Shown: positions 30,267-42,078 of the stretch, in pieces | Layout of the letters: every line of letters starts with the position of its first letter | How positions within the stretch are numbered: position 1 is the stretch's first letter | Assembly (NCBI GenBank): GCA_017619445.1 | Contig: JAFZSI010000061.1 | Coordinates: forward strand, 1 to 42,078 | From: Prevotella sp. | Lineage (GTDB): Bacteria > Bacteroidota > Bacteroidia > Bacteroidales > Bacteroidaceae | DNA length: 42,078 bases | Direction: 5' to 3' | The notes under the pieces: model-generated | Told to the model about the DNA's origin: nothing | What the model saw: only the letters and a program-made list of their open reading frames with translations | Databases searched by the model: none | Translations under genes and position numbers: made by a program

Positions 30267-31799
30267 TTAGTTCCTGTTGCGCTTTGCTGCGGCTTTGGCT
30301 GCTTTCTTCTTTGCTTTTTGTGCTTGGCGTATGGCCTCCTCTCTATCTTTTTGTGCTTGGCGTATGGCCTCCTCTCTATCTTTTTGTGCTTGGCGTATGG
30401 CCTCCTCTCTTGCTTTTTGTGCTTGGCGTATGGCCTCCTGCCTTTCTTTTTGTGCTTTGCTCAGTCTGGCCTGATAGTCCTTGCCTTGTTTCCGCTGGTT
30501 TGTCCTGTCGATATGCTTGATTGAGCCGAGGCCTTCCCGCCTAAGGCTGTTGTTGTCGGGGTTGCCGCTGTACTCAAGGTTGCCTGTGCCTTTGAGAGTG
30601 CCGGAGATGCTCACGTCGGCGTGGCATTGTGTGTTTCCTGTACCGGTTAAGTTGATTGTCACGTTGTTCGCGTCAAGGTCGGCGGCATGGATATTGCCCA
30701 TGCCGTAGTTGTTAATGATGGCCGTGTTGACGACGCCGCCGATGTGGATTTCTCCGTTAAAATTGTTCTCCATTACCACTGTCTGTGCGGTGAGGTCGTT
30801 GATGCGTATGGTTGCCGAGTTGTTGTTCACGAGTGCCAGTTTTTGGGTGGCCATTTCATCGATGGTCAGTTTCCCAGAACCATTTTCAATAATTGTGTTG
30901 AGTTGTGGCACGTATATGACGATGTCGCCCTGTGACGAATTACTTGAGTTGATAACCAGATTGTCTTGATTGTGGTAGAAGTGATAATCGGCGATGCTGT
31001 TTCCCGTGGTTTCCACCTTACATTCTTTGCTCTTGCTCTGTATGATTGTTACGTTTGCGTTGGCATTGATGATGACGTTCGTGAAGGGGTCGAACGTTGC
31101 GTGGCAGGTTTTCCCTTCTCCGTCGGTGTGTATCGATTTGGAGAAGTTGAAACTATTCAGCTCTGGTATCTCTATTCTGCTGGCAGACTCTAAGGCCGAC
31201 TCAAGGTCGTCGGGGAGTTGTATTTGTTGCGGAAAGTTTTGGAAATAATCCGTTCTGAGTGAGTTGCCGATGCGTTTGTCCATCCTTATGGCGTAGGTGA
31301 TGACGAGTTTGCCGCTGATGGTTTGGTCTTCGGTCTTCCATTCCATGGCGTAGGCATAGCGGTATTTCTTTTCAGGGTCTTCGGGGTCGAGAAACAGGGC
31401 GTAGATGTATTGGCAGCCTGGTGCGCCAATGCTCACGCTGCTGTGTGTTCGGGCATCGCCCACGGCCAAAGCAACCTTTGAGTTCTGTGAATGCTGGGGG
31501 TTGCGCATGTCGCCCGAAACGATGTTGAAGGCCTCGTCGCTATCCTGCTCAAAGGCGTTGAGTAGTGTTTTAATGGCTGTTTGTTCCGAGGCGGGCATTT
31601 CGAAATTGTAGATGGTGTATTGCGAAGTCTTCTTTCCGGTTTCGGGGTCTTTTGTCAGTCCGAAATCTTTGGTGACGAAGGCTTCCTTGTTGCGGGCAAA
31701 GTCGGTGAAGGCTTTGCTCAGTTGCGTCTGTGCATTTGTGGCTGCAGGTAATGCCGTGAGCACCATTGCGAGTGACAATGTTTGAATGATTCTGTTCAT
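30267..31799 (-). CDS. exported GIN/DUF2807-like beta-helix protein with basic coiled tail
   Basis: Starting at the ATG at 31799 the product has 510 residues, with signal peptide MNRIIQTLSLAMVLTALPAATNA. The frame 5' of this encodes a repeat-derived segment and is rejected. An N-terminal domain (about 25-200) is followed by a right-handed beta-helix like the GIN/DUF2807 'putative adhesin' domain (about 215-410, DNLVINSSNSS, KLTIDEMATQK, ATIRINDLTAQ). The last 65 residues are four to five copies of EEAIRQAQKDR, then AKKKAAKAAAKRNRN. It is the third gene after the ECF sigma and anti-sigma-like genes. Confidence 0.75.
   Translation of the reverse strand: MNRIIQTLSLAMVLTALPAATNAQTQLSKAFTDFARNKEAFVTKDFGLTKDPETGKKTSQYTIYNFEMPASEQTAIKTLLNAFEQDSDEAFNIVSGDMRNPQHSQNSKVALAVGDARTHSSVSIGAPGCQYIYALFLDPEDPEKKYRYAYAMEWKTEDQTISGKLVITYAIRMDKRIGNSLRTDYFQNFPQQIQLPDDLESALESASRIEIPELNSFNFSKSIHTDGEGKTCHATFDPFTNVIINANANVTIIQSKSKECKVETTGNSIADYHFYHNQDNLVINSSNSSQGDIVIYVPQLNTIIENGSGKLTIDEMATQKLALVNNNSATIRINDLTAQTVVMENNFNGEIHIGGVVNTAIINNYGMGNIHAADLDANNVTINLTGTGNTQCHADVSISGTLKGTGNLEYSGNPDNNSLRREGLGSIKHIDRTNQRKQGKDYQARLSKAQKERQEAIRQAQKAREEAIRQAQKDREEAIRQAQKDREEAIRQAQKAKKKAAKAAAKRNRN
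30315..30460. repeat. 33-bp tandem repeat coding for an 11-residue helix unit
   Basis: Repeat starts are at 30315, 30348, 30381, 30414 and 30447 (partial). On the minus strand they encode (K/A)(D/A)REEAIRQAQ. Copies are nearly identical at DNA level, so the copy number is probably variable. Confidence 0.75.
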
Positions 31800-31884
31800 A
31801 TTCTTTGTTTTTTCTTTTTTCGAGGTTACGGGGGTGCGGGGGTGCGGGGTTCGAGATGTGCTATTGTCCAAATTCCTTAACTCC

Positions 31885-32673
31885 CTATATATTGTTGAGG
31901 CTGTTGTTGTCTGCCGTATCGGTTTCCTGGGTGTAGGTAACGGTTCCGTTTTCCTGTATGACGGGCACGAATCCGCTTTCTTGAAGCATTGTGCGGATGT
32001 ATTCGTCCTTTAGCAGCAGGATGTTTTGTTTCATTACTGCCGCCGTATATGCTTCCCTGAACGAGTCGTCGGCCACACTGTCGGTTTCCGGGCTCAAGAG
32101 TTTGGCGATGTGGAACGGCTCCGAGCTGATGATGTCCGTAGGTTCTTCCGTGGTCTTGTCGTGGCGTTTCCTGGCTTTCCTTTTTCTTTTAGCTTGTGGT
32201 TTGGTCTGCTTTTTGGCCTGATTCTCAGTTGCAAATGCTGTCAGGGTGGTGGTGCTGTTGCTTTCTTCGTGATGGTTTTTGAGGTCTGTCGCCTTGGGTT
32301 GTGGCAGCGTGTTGCCGGGCAGTTGCCTGTCGGCAATTTGTTTGCGTTCTGGAGCTGGGCGGTTGAGCCACAGGGCGAGACAGGCTCCAACTAACAGCAC
32401 GGCCACGGCTGCTGCTGCAATCCATTGGCGGGGCAGCGTTGGTCTTTTGGTTGTCTTTTCTTCGCTCTCCTCGCTTGCCAGGTCTGCTGGCTTCATGCCG
32501 CTGTCGAAGTAGGCAAACATCTGTTTGTAGGGTTGCCATTCAGAAGGCACGATGTGGGTTTGCCTGAAGAACTGCGCCAACAACTGTTCTTCTTCCAGCG
32601 TTGTGTCTCCGTCCATGAACCGTTCGAGCAGGTGCTTGATGGTTTCTTCGTTATATGTTTTGTGGTCTGTCAT
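31885..32673 (-). CDS. anti-sigma-factor-like membrane protein
   Basis: The 262-residue protein has a cytoplasmic N-terminus (KHLLERFMDGDTTLEEEQLL, the helical pattern of Bacteroidetes anti-sigma regions), one membrane helix (84-103) and a periplasmic segment rich in Lys/Arg/Thr. Its start overlaps the stop of the ECF sigma gene by 4 bases. The sigma-anti-sigma pairing is inferred from order and topology. It resembles the 'DUF' anti-sigma of Prevotella operons that carry a GIN-type exported product. Confidence 0.6.
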   Translation of the reverse strand: MTDHKTYNEETIKHLLERFMDGDTTLEEEQLLAQFFRQTHIVPSEWQPYKQMFAYFDSGMKPADLASEESEEKTTKRPTLPRQWIAAAAVAVLLVGACLALWLNRPAPERKQIADRQLPGNTLPQPKATDLKNHHEESNSTTTLTAFATENQAKKQTKPQAKRKRKARKRHDKTTEEPTDIISSEPFHIAKLLSPETDSVADDSFREAYTAAVMKQNILLLKDEYIRTMLQESGFVPVIQENGTVTYTQETDTADNNSLNNI

Positions 32674-33182
32674 TGGTTTTGTTCTCTTTTCTTCAGTTTT
32701 TCAAACAATGTGCGCCGTGCCCTTGAGAGCAGCGTGCGCACCGATGGTTCTTCAAGCCCTGTCAGCCGGGCTATCTCTTTAGTACTACGCCTTTCCACCT
32801 GTCGCATATACAATAAGGTGTGTTGGGTGGAGGGCAGTTGTTCCAGTTGTCTGTCGAGCCATCGTTCGTTTTCAAGTTCCATCAGCTGTTCGTCGGGCAA
32901 GCCTGCCGACGACGAGGCGTGGACGGCCGTGAGCGAGTCTATTGGCAACGGTGGTTTTCGGCGTTTGGCGTTGAGCGTCAGTCGCCGCGCTGTCTGTGCT
33001 GCCACAGCTTCCAACGACTGGTAGCGATGCAGGTTGTTGCGCATTTGCCATAGGCGCAGCATGGTTTCCTGTGCCATGTCTTCGGCCTCCGATGGTGTTG
33101 CTCCGCAGCTGCGACTGGCTTCAAAGGCGCGCAGTCGCAGTTGTGGAGCTATTTTTTCAAATGCGCTTTCTGTCATACTCAA
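32670..33182 (-). CDS. ECF RNA polymerase sigma factor
   Basis: The 170-residue sigma factor has region 2 (TPSEAEDMAQETMLRLW, about 29-45) and a region 4 helix-turn-helix (RRSTKEIARLTGLEEPSVRTLLSRAR, positions about 132-157). It directs RNA polymerase to a small regulon, probably including its own operon. No standard -7 TAnnTTTG box precedes it, which fits autoregulation. A second ATG two codons in is also usable. Confidence 0.9.
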   Translation of the reverse strand: MSMTESAFEKIAPQLRLRAFEASRSCGATPSEAEDMAQETMLRLWQMRNNLHRYQSLEAVAAQTARRLTLNAKRRKPPLPIDSLTAVHASSSAGLPDEQLMELENERWLDRQLEQLPSTQHTLLYMRQVERRSTKEIARLTGLEEPSVRTLLSRARRTLFEKLKKREQNQ

Positions 33183-36621: not shown

Positions 36622-38290
36622 AGCTCGAACCACCCACAAACTCGCGCATGATGCTCGTTGGCGGTATTTCCTTGTCGCTGATGGGAATGAAATAGTGGAT
36701 GAACTTCAGCAGACGGTGGGCCTCGCTGTATTCAGGACAGTTTTTCGGTACACTGGCAAGGATGATTTCCGCGTGTGTTCGTAGCACGGCAAACTCGATG
36801 TTGAGTGCCGAGTTGAACATGGCATCAGCTGATTCCTGGAAGGGGAAAATCCATTTGTCTTCAGCATCGCAGACGTTTTTCCACTGGCTGATGGTCTGTT
36901 GTGCGGTGAACGCACCTTTGTTGTAGTCTCGGATGATGCGGCGCAGCAGACGGTTGTCGCGTACGGGGATCCAGTTGTGGTCGTCGAGCGAGATGCTGGT
37001 GAGTGCCGAGATATAGACCTTGAACTTAGCCGTGTCGGGAATGTTCTGTGTGAGTAGCGGGTTCAGGGCGTGTATGCCCTCAATGATAAGCACGCTGTCG
37101 CTTGATAACTTCACCTTCTTTCCGTTGTATTCGCGCTTGCCGGTGACGAAGTTGTATTCGGGCACCTCCACACGCTCGCCCTTCATCAGCCGTGTCAGAT
37201 GGTCCTCCATCAGCCGATATTCCACAGCCTCGATGTTGTCGAAGTCGTAGTCGCCGTTGGGCAACTTGGGCGTATCCACGCGGTTGACGAAATAGTCGTC
37301 GGTGGAGATGGAGTAGGGGCGCAGTCCGCAGGCCAGCAGCTGCACGCTGAGTCGCTTGCAGAACGTGGTCTTCCCCGAGCTTGACGGTCCTGTAATGAGC
37401 ACAATGCGTATGGGGTCTTGCTCTGCCCTGAACCGGCGGTCAATCTCCTCGGCAATCTGCACAATCTTCTTCTCCTGCAAGGCCTCGCTCACCTGTATCA
37501 GCTCCGATGCGTGGCCTTTCAGTATGGCTTTGTTCACGTCGCCCGCGTTCGAAAGCCGCATAATGATGTCCCACTTGGTCTTCTCTGCAAACATGCCGTA
37601 GGTCTTTGGCATGTCTGCCTTCTCGGCCAATACTGTCGGGTTGTTCCAGTCGGGCACACGTAGCAGCATTCCGTCGTGGTAGGGTTCCAATGCCCATACT
37701 TTCAGATAGCCTGCCGACGGCACCAAGGGACCGTAGTAGTAGTCGGCCGTGTCGCCCAGCATATAGTAGTCGCTGTAAATCTGTCCGCTCGTTTCCAGCA
37801 GCTTTACCTTGTCTGAGAATCCCCGCTCGGCAAACACGCGGATGGCCTCCTCGTTGGTGGCCTCGTTGCGGCGGAATGGCATGTCGATGTTCACAATCTC
37901 CTGCATCCGCTCGGCTATGCGTTCCACATCGCCCTCGGCCAGTGGCTCGTTGCCCTTCTTCTTGAAGTTGCAGTAGTAGCCGCGCGAGATGGTGTGCTCA
38001 ATGAACAACTTCGAACCGGGGAAAACGTCCTGCGTAGCCTTGTAGAGCACAAAGCACAGCGAGCGCACATACACGCGGTGGCCCGAGCCCTCGCGGGCAT
38101 CAAGAAATTCCACGTCGCGGTTTTGGAACAGGCGGAACTTGAGACCTTGCGAGGTGTTGTTGACTTTTGCCGACACGACAGGGTAGGGCAGTTTGATGTC
38201 ATCAGCAAACTCCTGATAGACTTCCAAAAGAGAGGTTCCCTCAGGGAAACTCTTTGTGACGTTGTTGTTTTTGCAGCGAATCTGTAACAT
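36611..38290 (-). CDS. uridine kinase-like nucleoside kinase with TGS/ThrRS-type N-terminus
   Basis: The 559-residue protein joins an N-terminal TGS domain and a ThrRS second-additional-like domain (about 1-230) to a P-loop uridine kinase/phosphoribulokinase-type domain: Walker A GPSSSGKTTF (about 300), the nucleoside-site SISTDDYFVNR, and DSVLIIEGIHALNP. It probably phosphorylates a nucleoside; the N-terminal part may bind RNA. Both claims are from family knowledge. The gene is convergent with menD, overlapping 11 bp. It has its own tandem promoter module (P6). Confidence 0.9.
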   Translation of the reverse strand: MLQIRCKNNNVTKSFPEGTSLLEVYQEFADDIKLPYPVVSAKVNNTSQGLKFRLFQNRDVEFLDAREGSGHRVYVRSLCFVLYKATQDVFPGSKLFIEHTISRGYYCNFKKKGNEPLAEGDVERIAERMQEIVNIDMPFRRNEATNEEAIRVFAERGFSDKVKLLETSGQIYSDYYMLGDTADYYYGPLVPSAGYLKVWALEPYHDGMLLRVPDWNNPTVLAEKADMPKTYGMFAEKTKWDIIMRLSNAGDVNKAILKGHASELIQVSEALQEKKIVQIAEEIDRRFRAEQDPIRIVLITGPSSSGKTTFCKRLSVQLLACGLRPYSISTDDYFVNRVDTPKLPNGDYDFDNIEAVEYRLMEDHLTRLMKGERVEVPEYNFVTGKREYNGKKVKLSSDSVLIIEGIHALNPLLTQNIPDTAKFKVYISALTSISLDDHNWIPVRDNRLLRRIIRDYNKGAFTAQQTISQWKNVCDAEDKWIFPFQESADAMFNSALNIEFAVLRTHAEIILASVPKNCPEYSEAHRLLKFIHYFIPISDKEIPPTSIMREFVGGSSFKY

Positions 38291-38299
38291 GTGGGGATA

Positions 38300-38335
38300 A
38301 TTACTATTTACTATTTACGATTTGAGGTTTTAGGT
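38300..38335. repeat. AAATCGTAAATAGTAAATAG array before the nucleoside kinase gene
   Basis: On the minus strand, CCTCAAATCGTAAATAGTAA then ATAGTAAT, period 7. The same sequence AAATCGTAAAT...GTAAATAGTAAAT precedes menF at 33893-33923. Confidence 0.6.
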
Positions 38336-38353
38336 TTTTCTCCTTTTTTGCTG

Positions 38354-38480
38354 CAAAGATACTATTAAGTGAGAGAAAAACCAAATTTATTTGAATATTT
38401 CCGAACGTGAGCACCTTCGACGAAGTCAAAGGTACGATAAAGTGAGCAAAAAGCCAAAGAGAAACAGAAGTTTATCACTT
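38354..38480 (-). promoter_or_regulatory. tandem hairpin promoter module P6 for the nucleoside kinase gene
   Basis: On the minus strand the first unit ends GCTCACTTTATCG and TACCTTTG. The linker ACTTCGTCGAAGGTG is followed by CTCACGTTCGGAAA. The second unit has the stem TTCAAATAAATTTGG, then TCTCACTTAATAG and TATCTTTG (plus-strand CAAAGATA 38354-38361). Initiation would leave a leader of about 58 nt. No TCTAGA palindrome is adjacent. Confidence 0.7.
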
Positions 38481-38522
38481 TCGAAGCCATTTGTTAGGCA
38501 ATCAAACGCTTTGAGTGCTTTC

Positions 38523-40166
38523 TTACCAATGGAAACGTATGCCGATGGGTAGGTTGATTTGCAGGGGGTGTTCCGTGCGATAGGATTTAAGTTCGCTGCC
38601 GTCGTTGAAGAAATATTGCAGGCCAGGCTCTGCGAAGATGCCGATGCTGGGTGTAAGGTCGTATTGCATTCCGATGCCGAGCGTAGCCGACCATTGTAAT
38701 GGCACACTTGGGGAAGTTTTTTTCTTGAAGATGCACTTGCCATCCATCATATATTGCACGTCAAGGGTGCTGTGCACAGGCCATTCGAGCATGGCGCCTG
38801 CAGAGGTGTATATGCAGAGAGGCTTCTTTCCGTACCATTGCCAACCCAAGCGCAAGGGCAGTCCAAGATAACGAAGCCGCTGCTGCTCTTGAATGTTAGC
38901 AGCGGTGCTGCCTGTGGTAGTTGTTGAGCTCAGTTGCGTGTAGCTCAATCCCGTTTCTATTGAGGCTTTTCTGCCGAGGCTGTGGCTGAACATGACTTGC
39001 AGGGTGACGGGCGGATGATGCTCATAGTTGGCTTCCATGGCACCGTTGTTGACGTATGCATTATACTCGGTAACGACAAGGATAGAGCGTGTCTCTTCGT
39101 CCAGTATAACACCAGGGTTGTTGTTCAGGAAGTATTCGTAGTCGTTCCAGTTGCTGAACATCTCTTTGGAAGAAATCAACGAGTTGCTATTGGCATTGAA
39201 ACTGTTTCTGCCAATGAAGGCCGAAGCCAGATAGGTGTCGCCCCTGCCCATCTGACCGTTAAAAGCAACGCTGACGTTCCATTTTTGTGTTTTGGCATTT
39301 TCCAGAGGAACAGTGGTATGGAGGTATGGTGGCATGATATTCGTATTCTTCTTTATATCTCCATTATCCGACTTGTTTTCGTGCTCCCGTACCTCCGTTC
39401 CCTTGTTCTCTTGTTCAATAGTCTCCTGCTGATAAGGAATACTGTCTGGCAGAATGACGGCCTCGGCCTGATAGCGGATGGGACGGGCATTTTGGCGAAT
39501 GTCAACCCCTTCGCAGTTAGCAGCAACGGTGATGGGTTGCTCTTCGGGCTTATCTGCAGGCTTCGTGGGCTGAGGCTGCTGAGTGGCCCTGCGGGCAGTG
39601 GGTTTTTGTGGTGTGGGCTGCTGTTTCTGCACAAATCGCCACACAACTGCCGGTATCATCAGTAGCAGCAGCATAAGCATCCACGACTGCCTGATGAGCA
39701 GCCTGAGCATACGTTTGGCGTGGGATAGTTGTGAGGAAGATGTGTGTGGCGCAATGCCTAAGAGATGGCTGATTTCCTGATGCGATAAACCTTCGAACAC
39801 CGACAGCCTAAACACTTGCTGATAGCCCTTCGGCAGTTGGGCGACAAGAGCCTGCAACTGGTCGTAGTCGGGAATTGGGTTGACGTCAGGATTTATGTTG
39901 GCATCTTTCGCCATTTGTTGCAGTACCGCCTGCTCTTTCTCGGCGTGTAGCCGGTAGTGATAACCAACGTTCCTGACGATGGCCGTTATCCAAGGTTCCA
40001 GTTTCGAGGGATCCTCAAGTGTGTCGAGTGAGGTTAGAATTATTACGAAAGAATCGTGTAGCAGATCTTCTGCCACACTATCCTCCTTGGCATATTGTTT
40101 ACAAATGCTCAGAAGTTTTGGCTTGTATTTCAGATATAGTTCTGTTGCCTCCATGAGGGTCAACAA
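38523..40166 (-). CDS. sigma-70 domain fused to a membrane helix and an outer-membrane beta-barrel-like domain
   Basis: One uninterrupted frame of 547 residues. Residues 1-160 are a sigma-70 (ECF) factor: region 2 (SVAEDLLHDSFVIIL, 30-44; EPWITAIVRNVGYHYR) and a region 4 helix-turn-helix (FEGLSHQEISHLLGIAPHTS, about 124-143, SQLSHAKRML). Residues 162-178 are one membrane helix (WMLMLLLLMIPAVVWRF). A Pro/Gln/Lys-rich linker (180-215) follows. Residues about 295-547 alternate aromatic strands and end IGIRFHW, as outer-membrane barrels do. The lipoprotein gene upstream is 12 bp away. The barrel assignment is from pattern only. Confidence 0.75.
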   Translation of the reverse strand: MLTLMEATELYLKYKPKLLSICKQYAKEDSVAEDLLHDSFVIILTSLDTLEDPSKLEPWITAIVRNVGYHYRLHAEKEQAVLQQMAKDANINPDVNPIPDYDQLQALVAQLPKGYQQVFRLSVFEGLSHQEISHLLGIAPHTSSSQLSHAKRMLRLLIRQSWMLMLLLLMIPAVVWRFVQKQQPTPQKPTARRATQQPQPTKPADKPEEQPITVAANCEGVDIRQNARPIRYQAEAVILPDSIPYQQETIEQENKGTEVREHENKSDNGDIKKNTNIMPPYLHTTVPLENAKTQKWNVSVAFNGQMGRGDTYLASAFIGRNSFNANSNSLISSKEMFSNWNDYEYFLNNNPGVILDEETRSILVVTEYNAYVNNGAMEANYEHHPPVTLQVMFSHSLGRKASIETGLSYTQLSSTTTTGSTAANIQEQQRLRYLGLPLRLGWQWYGKKPLCIYTSAGAMLEWPVHSTLDVQYMMDGKCIFKKKTSPSVPLQWSATLGIGMQYDLTPSIGIFAEPGLQYFFNDGSELKSYRTEHPLQINLPIGIRFHW

Positions 40167-40178
40167 ACCTTACCTTTT

Positions 40179-40907
40179 TTATTGTTTGCAGATGCGGATA
40201 TAAGTAGTCTCGATGCCATAGCAAGTGATGCCGGAAGGAATACTCTCATCTCCTTGAAGGGCTTGGGTAATATCGCCCCCAGAAAAACCTCCTATCTGTA
40301 CAAACTTGCCATCATATTTCTTCAGATTCTCGGTGTTCAGATACCCCCAAATGAAGTAATACTTATTGTTTGCTTCCACATAATGGCCTCGCCTTTCTTG
40401 ATCGGGGTCATAGCGGAAAACTCCTGTAATTCCCTTCACAAAAGGATCTGCCGAATAGATGCATTTCCAGTCAGAGAAAATGTCATACGAAACAACGCCA
40501 TCTTCTGTTATCCACTCTTCTTTTTTAAGTTGTCTGCCATCTTCGTGATAAAACCGACAGCCTATGCAGGAACTAAACAGGTTGTCAAAATAATAAATGG
40601 ATTCACCGTGACATTTACCTTCGAATATCTTGAACCGTCCGATGGCTACCTCTCTCTCGTCCCAACTGCTGATGCCCTTTTGTAGAAACCCGGGCAACTC
40701 AGAAAAATCCTTTAGCTCAACAGGAATCAAGTCATGAACGAAAGCAAGACTGGTAAATCCATAATCATGGCTGTCTCCATTATGAGAAAGTCCCGACTCA
40801 TCCCATTCTCCATTATCTATTGAATCAATGCTACTGCTACAGGCTGCAAACATTGTCATTCCCAGCACCACGATCAGTATGGTTCCAAACTCCTTAATCT
40901 TTTTCAT
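40179..40907 (-). CDS. lipoprotein of unknown function
   Basis: The 242-residue protein has a lipobox FAAC (Cys at about 23) after MKKIKEFGTILIVVLGMTM. The first residues after the Cys are SSSIDSIDN, then acidic. No known domain was recognised; several Trp/Tyr/Phe-rich strands and a Cys pair (SSCIGCRF) are visible. It is 12 bp upstream of the sigma-barrel gene on the same strand, so the two probably share a transcript. A lipoprotein at the inner or outer membrane could partner the barrel. Confidence 0.75.
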   Translation of the reverse strand: MKKIKEFGTILIVVLGMTMFAACSSSIDSIDNGEWDESGLSHNGDSHDYGFTSLAFVHDLIPVELKDFSELPGFLQKGISSWDEREVAIGRFKIFEGKCHGESIYYFDNLFSSCIGCRFYHEDGRQLKKEEWITEDGVVSYDIFSDWKCIYSADPFVKGITGVFRYDPDQERRGHYVEANNKYYFIWGYLNTENLKKYDGKFVQIGGFSGGDITQALQGDESIPSGITCYGIETTYIRICKQ

Positions 40908-40927
40908 TGCTTGTTGTTTTATGCCTA

Positions 40928-40935
40928 CAAATTTA
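40928..40935 (-). promoter_or_regulatory. -7 box of the lipoprotein/sigma-barrel operon
   Basis: On the minus strand the box reads TAAATTTG, a match to TAnnTTTG with a leader of about 15 nt. No -33 TTTG is obvious at the usual distance, so support is moderate. Confidence 0.4.
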
Positions 40936-41042
40936 AACGTTTTTGCTTATATAGTGTCGCGAATAGCAAAAAGACTGCACGGGAGTAGCGATGTTTTAGG
41001 ATTTGTTAACGGCTGCGCGTTCCCATTAAGCCTCACATTTTG

Positions 41043-41050
41043 TATTTTTG
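41043..41050 (+). promoter_or_regulatory. menB -7 box
   Basis: TATTTTTG followed by CATC, about 25 nt before the ATG pair at 41075/41078. It implies that menB has its own promoter and is not read from menD. Confidence 0.6.
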
Positions 41051-41074
41051 CATCATCAACAACACTGCAACATC

Positions 41075-41935
41075 ATGATGACAAAAAGAGAATGGAAGTC
41101 CATCCGAGATTTCGAGGAAATCTTATTGGAGGAATACAATGGCATTGCCAAGATTACCATCAACCGCGCGCGTTACCGCAACGCCTTCACACCTAAAACC
41201 ACTTTGGAACTGAGTCAGGCGTTCGCCATCTGCCGCGAACTGGCCCGCATCCGCGTTGTGCTGCTTACGGGTGCCATGTCGCCCGTGCCCGAAGGCATGA
41301 AACCCGAAGACGTGAAGCATGCGTTCTGTTCGGGCGGCGACATGCACGTGAAAGGCCGCGGTGGATACATCGACGACGAGGGTGTGCCCCGTCTGAGTGT
41401 GCTCGACGTGCAGATGCAGATACGCCGTCTGCCCAAGCCCGTCATCGCCATGGTCAACGGCTATGCCATCGGTGGCGGTCACGTGCTGCACGTGGTGTGC
41501 GACCTGACCATCGCCAGCGAGAACGCCATCTTCGGGCAGACTGGGCCGAAGGTGGGCTCGTTTGACGCAGGGTTCGGCAGCAGTTACCTGGCACGTATGG
41601 TAGGTCAGAAGAAGGCGCGCGAGATTTGGTTCCTCTGCCGCCAATACACGGCGCGCGAGGCCGAACAGATGGGCATGGTGAACAAGGTAGTACCTCTGGC
41701 ACAGCTTGAGGACGAGTGCGTCAGTTGGGCAGAGGAGATGATGGAGCGCAGCCCCATAGCCCTGCGCATGATAAAATGTGGACTGAACGCCGAGCTCGAC
41801 GGACAGGCTGGCATTCAGCAGCTGGCTGGCGATGCCACCATGCTCTACTACTTCCTCGACGAGGCACAGGAAGGCGGCAAAGCGTTTTTGGAGAAAAGAA
41901 AACCAGATTTTGGACAGTATAACAACCTGCCTTGA
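41075..41935 (+). CDS. menB: 1,4-dihydroxy-2-naphthoyl-CoA synthase
   Basis: MenB closes the ring of o-succinylbenzoyl-CoA in menaquinone synthesis. The product has 286 residues from the first ATG. It shows the crotonase-fold FCSGGDM oxyanion region, [16 protein letters not shown], and the MenB-specific [19 protein letters not shown] chose the ATG at 41075 (or 41078) because a -7 promoter box ends at 41050; the frame from TTG 41048 is rejected. It is separated from menD by 4.4 kb of minus-strand genes. Confidence 0.94.
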
Positions 41936-41955
41936 GACAGAGTAACTGGTTTTTA

Positions 41956-42078
41956 GACATAGTAACATACTAACAAAAAAAACAGTAACATATTTTTTTA
42001 GACATAGTAACATACTAACAAAAAAAACAGTAACATATTTTTTTAGACATAGTAACATACTAACAAAAAAAACAGTAA
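41956..42078. repeat. 45-bp tandem repeat at the right edge
   Basis: Perfect units begin at 41956, 42001 and 42046 (the last cut by the window). Each begins GACATAGTAACATACTAAC, followed by AAAAAAAACAGTAACATATT and a T run. The first 19 bases equal the left arm of the lysS terminator at 23051. The array may continue past the window. Confidence 0.8.

Follow-up and report, generated by a model that had tools for sequence, protein, structure and literature searches.

A Dma3-like sigma factor joined to a predicted outer-membrane barrel in Prevotella, and the promoter-like element conserved at its loci

Can a single protein carry a signal from the bacterial outer membrane to RNA polymerase? The question is raised by a gene of Prevotella sp. 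in a contig stretch of 42,078 nucleotides (the whole of which is referred to here as the window), whose product combines sigma factor regions, a membrane helix, a linker and a predicted barrel. Cell-surface signalling of the FecI/FecR/FecA type places an ECF sigma factor under the control of a barrel on the far side of the periplasm, in the outer membrane, and the fusion resembles this system in the proposed control of an ECF sigma factor by a barrel. However, the Fec system uses three proteins, one of them a TonB-dependent receptor and another a distinct anti-sigma factor, and no single polypeptide joins the compartments, whereas the fusion is one chain. Pairs of sigma factors and dual-membrane anti-sigma factors encoded by two genes are known as Das1/Dma1, Das2/Dma2 and EcfO/Reo; Dma proteins are described as an anti-sigma domain followed by a helix, a disordered tether and a barrel, and their genes adjoin ECF21 sigma genes (PMC13088901). 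The regulator of the EcfO/Reo pair extends through all compartments and is proposed to sense outer-membrane stress, the sigma gene of the pair is upregulated 33-fold under the toxin BcpT, and the targets of these two-gene relatives include surface lipoproteins (PMC9308784, PMC13114119). A one-piece form is represented by Dma3 of Bacteroides thetaiotaomicron (locus bt_2778-2779), in which the sigma factor is the N-terminal domain and about which very little is known (PMC13088901); BT2778 is further found in iron tables as a sigma-70 family factor (PMC10434189). In a limited literature search, PMC13088901 was the only publication found that describes a sigma factor fused to a dual-membrane protein. 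A sequence-only reading of the window had regarded separate sigma, anti-sigma and transporter genes as the usual Bacteroidetes design and the fusion as a candidate for a direct surface-to-transcription route. This contrast is half right: two-gene pairs exist, but a one-piece Dma3 was already in print, so that such a route would not be new in kind. This protein type is real, well conserved and already described, and the value added here is a handle on the regulon and the modular evolution of Dma3-type proteins.

The open frame of 547 codons that had been reported is confirmed, with the specification that it lies on the minus strand, running from 40166 to 38523; the same coordinates read on the plus strand are full of stops. 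The TTG at 40166 gives the product of 547 aa, and the ATG at 40154 (Met5) is the more likely start, with a product of 543 aa, because relatives start at that position. The features of the locus are collected in Table 1. Both sigma regions stand at the N-terminus and exceed their Pfam cut-offs, and hydropathy analysis finds only one strong hydrophobic stretch, i.e. a single helix, followed by the Pro/Gln-rich linker. The Pfam scan of the whole protein did not return a barrel match, and the C-terminal 264 residues alone matched PF13568 (OMP_b-brl_2) below the cut-off (E 0.0023). In alignment A2, composed of 14 of the 78 fusion barrels described below and 5 of 13 barrels from two-gene pairs, PF13568 was matched in 19/19 members and PF13505 in 18/19, with a best value of 2.7e-14; a PDB search with the profile of these 19 barrels yielded one chance-level match only (E 1.2). 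The barrel identity of the C-terminal domain is supported via this family membership. In this way, the domain order first proposed from the letters alone (N-terminal sigma regions 2 and 4, one inner-membrane helix, a Pro/Gln-rich tether and an outer-membrane barrel with an aromatic end) is backed by sequence, and four elements are new in comparison to that proposal: the minus strand, 15 missing codons, the upstream lipoprotein gene and a promoter-like element.

Table 1. Features of the fusion locus in window coordinates
Feature	Position	Strand	Details
Fusion gene	38523..40154	-	ATG is Met5 of the reported frame, which opens at TTG 40166; 543 aa
Junction of in-frame gap of 15 codons, Glu9/Leu10	40134..40145	-	Opening of sigma region 2; seen by alignment to L009 and L010
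Sigma-70 region 2, residues 10-71	39954..40139	-	PF04542 (Sigma70_r2), E 7.9e-9, above Pfam cut-off
Sigma-70 region 4, residues 102-154	39705..39863	-	PF08281 (Sigma70_r4_2), E 6.4e-13, above cut-off; recovered also in the genome scan
Transmembrane helix, residues 161-179	39630..39686	-	Most hydrophobic 19 residues, hydropathy peak 1.98; 7 residues past region 4
Pro/Gln-rich disordered linker, about residues 180-293 (about 115 residues)	39288..39629	-	Disorder judged by composition
C-terminal OMP-type beta-barrel domain, about residues 294-547	38526..39287	-	PF13568/PF13505 family membership; last residue Trp
Lipoprotein gene, 242 aa	40179..40907	-	Lipobox FAAC; ends 24 bp before fusion Met5
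Promoter-like element TGCAGTCTTTT-N14-CTATATA	40948-40979	-	0 mismatches; 40 bases before lipoprotein start

The fusion is followed by a gene whose product resembles, by eye and by motif, a uridine kinase, and is preceded by the lipoprotein gene. No sigma gene adjoins it, the nearest other PF08281 match of the window being about 5.7 kb away (32706-32864), and no separate anti-sigma gene was seen among its neighbours. A scan of positions 38000-41500 gave no Rfam element at gathering score, and a generic sigma-70 promoter scan gave 2 matches in comparison to a mean of 3.8 in shuffles. The distant PF08281 match belongs to a separate ECF sigma gene within 30267-32864 of the minus strand, behind which lie a putative membrane anti-sigma gene (judged by eye) and a gene for a secreted protein; separate-gene and one-piece sigma designs are both present in the same window.

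The search for the same architecture in other genomes that the sequence-only reading had suggested returned 78 full-length distinct fusions from many genomes, all unbroken and with the joint at a constant place; the frame-broken loci L044, L048, L080, L089 and L102 are excluded from these counts, and L057 was dropped as a repeat of L010. Two full-length relatives are present in named records, from an uncultured Prevotellaceae bacterium (54% identity) and from Prevotella aff. ruminicola Tc2-24 (50%). Across the 78 fusions, the helix begins -1 to 11 residues past region 4 (median 6), and the linker measures 97-141 residues (median 118), is the least conserved part (mean 0.33) and has a median content of 61% P, Q, E, K, T, S, N or D. 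The chain ends with Trp in 73 fusions, with Tyr in 2, with Lys in 2 and with Arg in 1.

The same searches also return pairs in which the gene after an ECF sigma gene encodes a short cytosolic start, then a helix and a linker, and finally the barrel seen in the fusions; one such pair is present in the genome of the window itself (C51:5614-7565). In 13/13 pairs, the cytosolic start comprises 46-58 residues, counted from the first Met, and contains a shared motif. The fusions carry the sigma factor in the place that the anti-sigma domain occupies in the two-gene proteins. A profile of this domain of 46-58 residues did not match any of the 78 fusions at E <0.05 (best value 0.094; window protein 3.3). 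The spacing of -1 to 11 residues from region 4 to the helix, together with the null result of the profile search, led to the rejection of a concealed anti-sigma domain at this place. As the N-terminal anti-sigma domain that distinguishes the Dma family is absent from the window protein (profile E 3.3), this protein is classed as Dma3-like and not as an anti-sigma factor, and it is filed as such by architecture. In comparison to Dma3 (BT_2778), the window protein has a shortened region 2 and its gene is preceded by the lipoprotein gene. The Das1/Dma1 and Das2/Dma2 systems share the helix, the disordered tether and the C-terminal barrel with the fusions, but consist of two genes, with Dma starting with an anti-sigma domain (the Bacteroides genes being compared by description). 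The collected pairs of Das/Dma layout have sigma factors related to those of the fusions and mostly share the -35-like element discussed below.

Fusion heads and the sigma genes from pairs are joined in a single tree. A single branch parts fusions from pairs in both the sigma and the barrel tree, with support of 99 and 95, respectively, and of 100 and 99 once long-branch and broken rows are left out. One conversion between the forms therefore suffices, and these trees, which are unrooted between the two forms, support no direction for it.

The reading favoured for the window protein, with a probability of roughly 0.7, is that of a Dma3-kind regulator spanning both membranes in one piece, whose tethered sigma factor would be freed by envelope disturbance and would then transcribe its own operon and an adjacent gene. 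The ECF sigma domain would be kept cytoplasmic at the inner membrane by the helix directly after region 4, while the long tether would cross the periplasm to a small outer-membrane barrel, with the sigma factor presumably inside and the barrel outside. The tether would stand in for the anti-sigma domain: since the fusions do not carry the domain of 46-58 residues, the tether is a likely restraint on the sigma factor. A disturbed outer membrane or barrel would free the sigma factor, most likely via cleavage at or near the helix; activation by outer-membrane stress is suggested here by analogy with EcfO/Reo. The freed factor would act from the TGCAGTCTTTT-N14-CTATATA promoter on its own operon, which in the window would be the lipoprotein gene together with the fusion, and on the adjacent gene. 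If the tether alone controls the sigma factor, with no anti-sigma domain involved, the path from an outer-membrane signal to RNA polymerase would be a simpler one.

Alternatively, the sigma factor could work while tethered at the inner membrane, similar to membrane-bound activators, with the barrel positioning or gating it and no release taking place. This option is rather unlikely, even though no cleavage site has been identified and the helix lies at most 11 residues past region 4 in 78/78 fusions; a Pro is located within the hydrophobic window of 61/78 helices, which fits cleavage and is not evidence for it. The operon is apparently self-transcribed and some brake would be needed for this reason, so that an always-active tethered factor would require another one. 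In addition, Reo, a relative from the two-gene systems, has been proposed to set its sigma factor free (PMC13114119).

The sigma activity of the copy in the window is uncertain because 15 codons of region 2 are absent, and it is conceivable, with odds clearly below one half, that the gap has made this copy a weak allele, or a dead one, while the family functions elsewhere. The missing segment is kept in the other 77 fusions, in L017 with its last 9 residues only since the frame of L017 opens there, so that the window is the one fusion among 78 in which it is wholly absent; the window also forms the longest end branch (0.26) of a clade of nine rows in the sigma tree, hereafter the window clade. 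Against damage speak an in-frame gap, an otherwise open frame and the exact promoter-like element of the window. Moreover, 67 columns are conserved at 90% among the other 77 fusions; 4 of them fall inside the gap and the window matches the remaining 63/63. Its departures at conserved columns (4, with a median of 1 per fusion) are accordingly all within the gap, which could also be an assembly fault of the draft genome. As for L017 (G063), only 9 residues separate the opening of its frame from the conserved LY in region 2, though the usual ATGGAG start lies upstream, and this fusion start may perhaps be interrupted as well.

The part of the favoured reading that concerns transcription depends on the promoter-like element. 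Upstream of fusions outside the window clade, a conserved block consists of TGCAGTCTTTT, 13-14 bases and a CTATATA-like part; about 20 bases separate the end of the latter from the start codon. With up to 3 mismatches of the 14-base form allowed, the element is present upstream of 61/67 other fusions and in 9/9 loci of the window clade. Two-gene pairs are preceded by the -35-like part (TGCAGTATTTT or near) at -54 to -62; TGCAGTCTTTT was detected before 9/13 of them at up to 1 mismatch and before 12/13 at up to 3, and the pair in the window's own genome (C51:5614-7565) has no promoter-like element upstream. A second copy lies within 450 bp past the fusion in 53/78 loci (allowing 1 mismatch in the -35-like part), in comparison to 1/78 on the opposite strand and 17/2060 in shuffled pieces of 450 bases. 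The downstream copies that are listed begin 3-39 bases past the stop codon, and the remaining 25/78 fusion loci are without one. A literature full-text search for a published promoter with TGCAGT listed a single paper, an unrelated one.

The conservation of the element and the agreement of its -10 part with the sigma-head lineage support its assignment as the promoter of the fused sigma factor. It would have to be the site of another regulator or a housekeeping promoter for this assignment to be wrong, which is improbable. One feature of the window does fit such a promoter: just downstream of its element lies a TTAAATTTG stretch that resembles the Bacteroidota -7 box. However, the -10 part shifts with the clade of the sigma head, the -35-like part is also found upstream of two-gene pairs of the same sigma family, and the element flags both the sigma gene and the neighbour gene.

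Genome-wide, the element has one exact site in the window's own genome, namely that of the window, and 4 sites at up to 3 mismatches, with 0 for the reversed-pattern control. Of 10 sites with 0-1 mismatch in another 12 genomes, 9 belong to fusion loci and 1 (G024) does not; once up to 3 mismatches are allowed, the count is 79 sites vs. 58 for the reversed control, so that only near-exact sites carry weight. A wide regulon was therefore rejected, on the single exact site in the own genome and on the 9/10 near-exact sites at fusion loci, and the regulon looks mostly local. The pattern used one fixed spacing and one -10 sequence and missed known fusion sites, e.g. L015; other targets may be missed for this reason.

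The comparison of -10 parts comprises 58 loci in which both copies were found (up to 2 mismatches). This part reads GGACTATATA in the main clade of sigma heads, GGTATCTATC in a clade designated H and ACACTATATA in the window clade. Agreement over 13 positions averages 7.76 for the two copies of a locus, 7.92 for different loci of the same clade and 5.80 across clades, and the observed mean for similarity by sigma clade was equalled in 0/5000 permutations, with clade labels assigned by hand after the trees and including a mixed rest class. As the value within loci (7.76) is not above that between loci of the same clade (7.92), the match is one by clade and may partly reflect shared descent. The pattern fits direct recognition of the element by the fused sigma head, with shared descent contributing.

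The H clade (L023, L025, L028, L030, L035, L064, L071-L074, L076, L078 and L079) combines a divergent sigma head with a barrel of the main clade: its 13 rows are located inside the main clade in the barrel tree and far outside it in the sigma tree. Between 11 H-clade and 27 main-clade fusions, the sigma heads share 45% identity, vs. 80% and 79% within the groups; for the barrels, the values are 65% between and 78% and 70% within the groups. The sigma data reject a grouping of the H rows with 20 main-clade rows (p 1.6e-46, for a group picked after the tree). Sigma heads thus seem to have been exchanged on conserved sensor barrels.

Alongside the heads, the neighbouring genes differ between clades. 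In 12/13 loci of the H clade, a methyltransferase-like gene stands behind the second copy of the element. For the 56 fusions that belong to neither the window clade nor the H clade, this position is taken by a lipoprotein gene in 24 cases, by a radical-SAM-like gene in 6 and by a methyltransferase-like gene in 4; 6 are other or out of reach and 16 have no copy. These labels derive from N-terminal motifs, and Pfam confirmed one methyltransferase (L084) and one radical-SAM protein (L024). Within the window clade, a lipoprotein gene lies immediately upstream of the fusion, behind a single element, in 8/9 loci, in comparison to 0/56 of the other fusion rows, some of which had short upstream sequence. 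The ninth locus, L011, shows the downstream arrangement instead, and L093, outside those rows, has a lipoprotein gene 187 bases upstream. For orientation, the lipobox rule applied to naive gene calls selects 4/50 genes in the window, L009 and L010 and 32/294 in the other loci, partners counted. Judging from this arrangement, lipoprotein gene and fusion of the window probably form one operon and are co-transcribed. The upstream lipoproteins span 92-449 aa, and a Pfam scan of those from the window, L009, L010 and L015 gave nothing above cut-off. EcfO/Reo of Bacteroides and Phocaeicola is similar in having a regulator of five compartments that is proposed to sense outer-membrane stress, an induced operon and lipoprotein (NigD) targets (PMC9308784, PMC13114119), but differs in having two genes and a separate anti-sigma factor; in contrast to the NigD targets, the window lipoprotein is without any Pfam family, NigD included.

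The conserved promoter-like element and the adjacent putative target genes would provide a concrete regulon for Dma3-type proteins. A broader reading, on which we would place an even wager, is that these proteins form a one-protein line from the outer membrane to RNA polymerase, with a tether in place of an anti-sigma factor, and that the barrel was kept while an output module of head, -10 part and target gene was swapped; the output of the window would then be a fast-changing lipoprotein that moved into the operon.

The one-piece form is widespread in the genus of the window and beyond. Some match at E 1e-10 was obtained in 145/200 genomes of the genus, and an unbroken match from sigma factor to barrel in at least 48/200, counted from the listed rows with the own genome included. 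At the family level, 116/301 genomes match at 1e-25, and at the order level 16/393 at 1e-30, two-gene relatives being included in both counts; within the order, fusions were found in f1, f5, f26 and f111, i.e. in four groups at the level of families. That sigma factor and barrel are in truth encoded by two genes whose intervening stop is masked by a sequencing or assembly error, a notion to which the five frame-broken relatives might lend something, is refuted: many genomes supply unbroken fusions, 78 of them distinct, and the joint is constant in position.

Some minor observations accompany these results. One of the frame-broken loci, L102 (G740), has an otherwise fused gene that is split near the joint by an in-frame TGA, with the sigma part on one side and helix and barrel on the other. 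The contig end (window 41950-42078) is a perfect tandem repeat of 2.9 copies of a 45-base unit. Finally, at C55:4089-4120 of the window's own genome (L107), a promoter-like element of H type and the leader of a fusion start are followed by a stop and then by the start of a gene for a secreted protein; the contig continues for 240 bases without a fusion gene. An H-type fusion may have been lost here, with this site as its remnant, or the site may be a recruited target.
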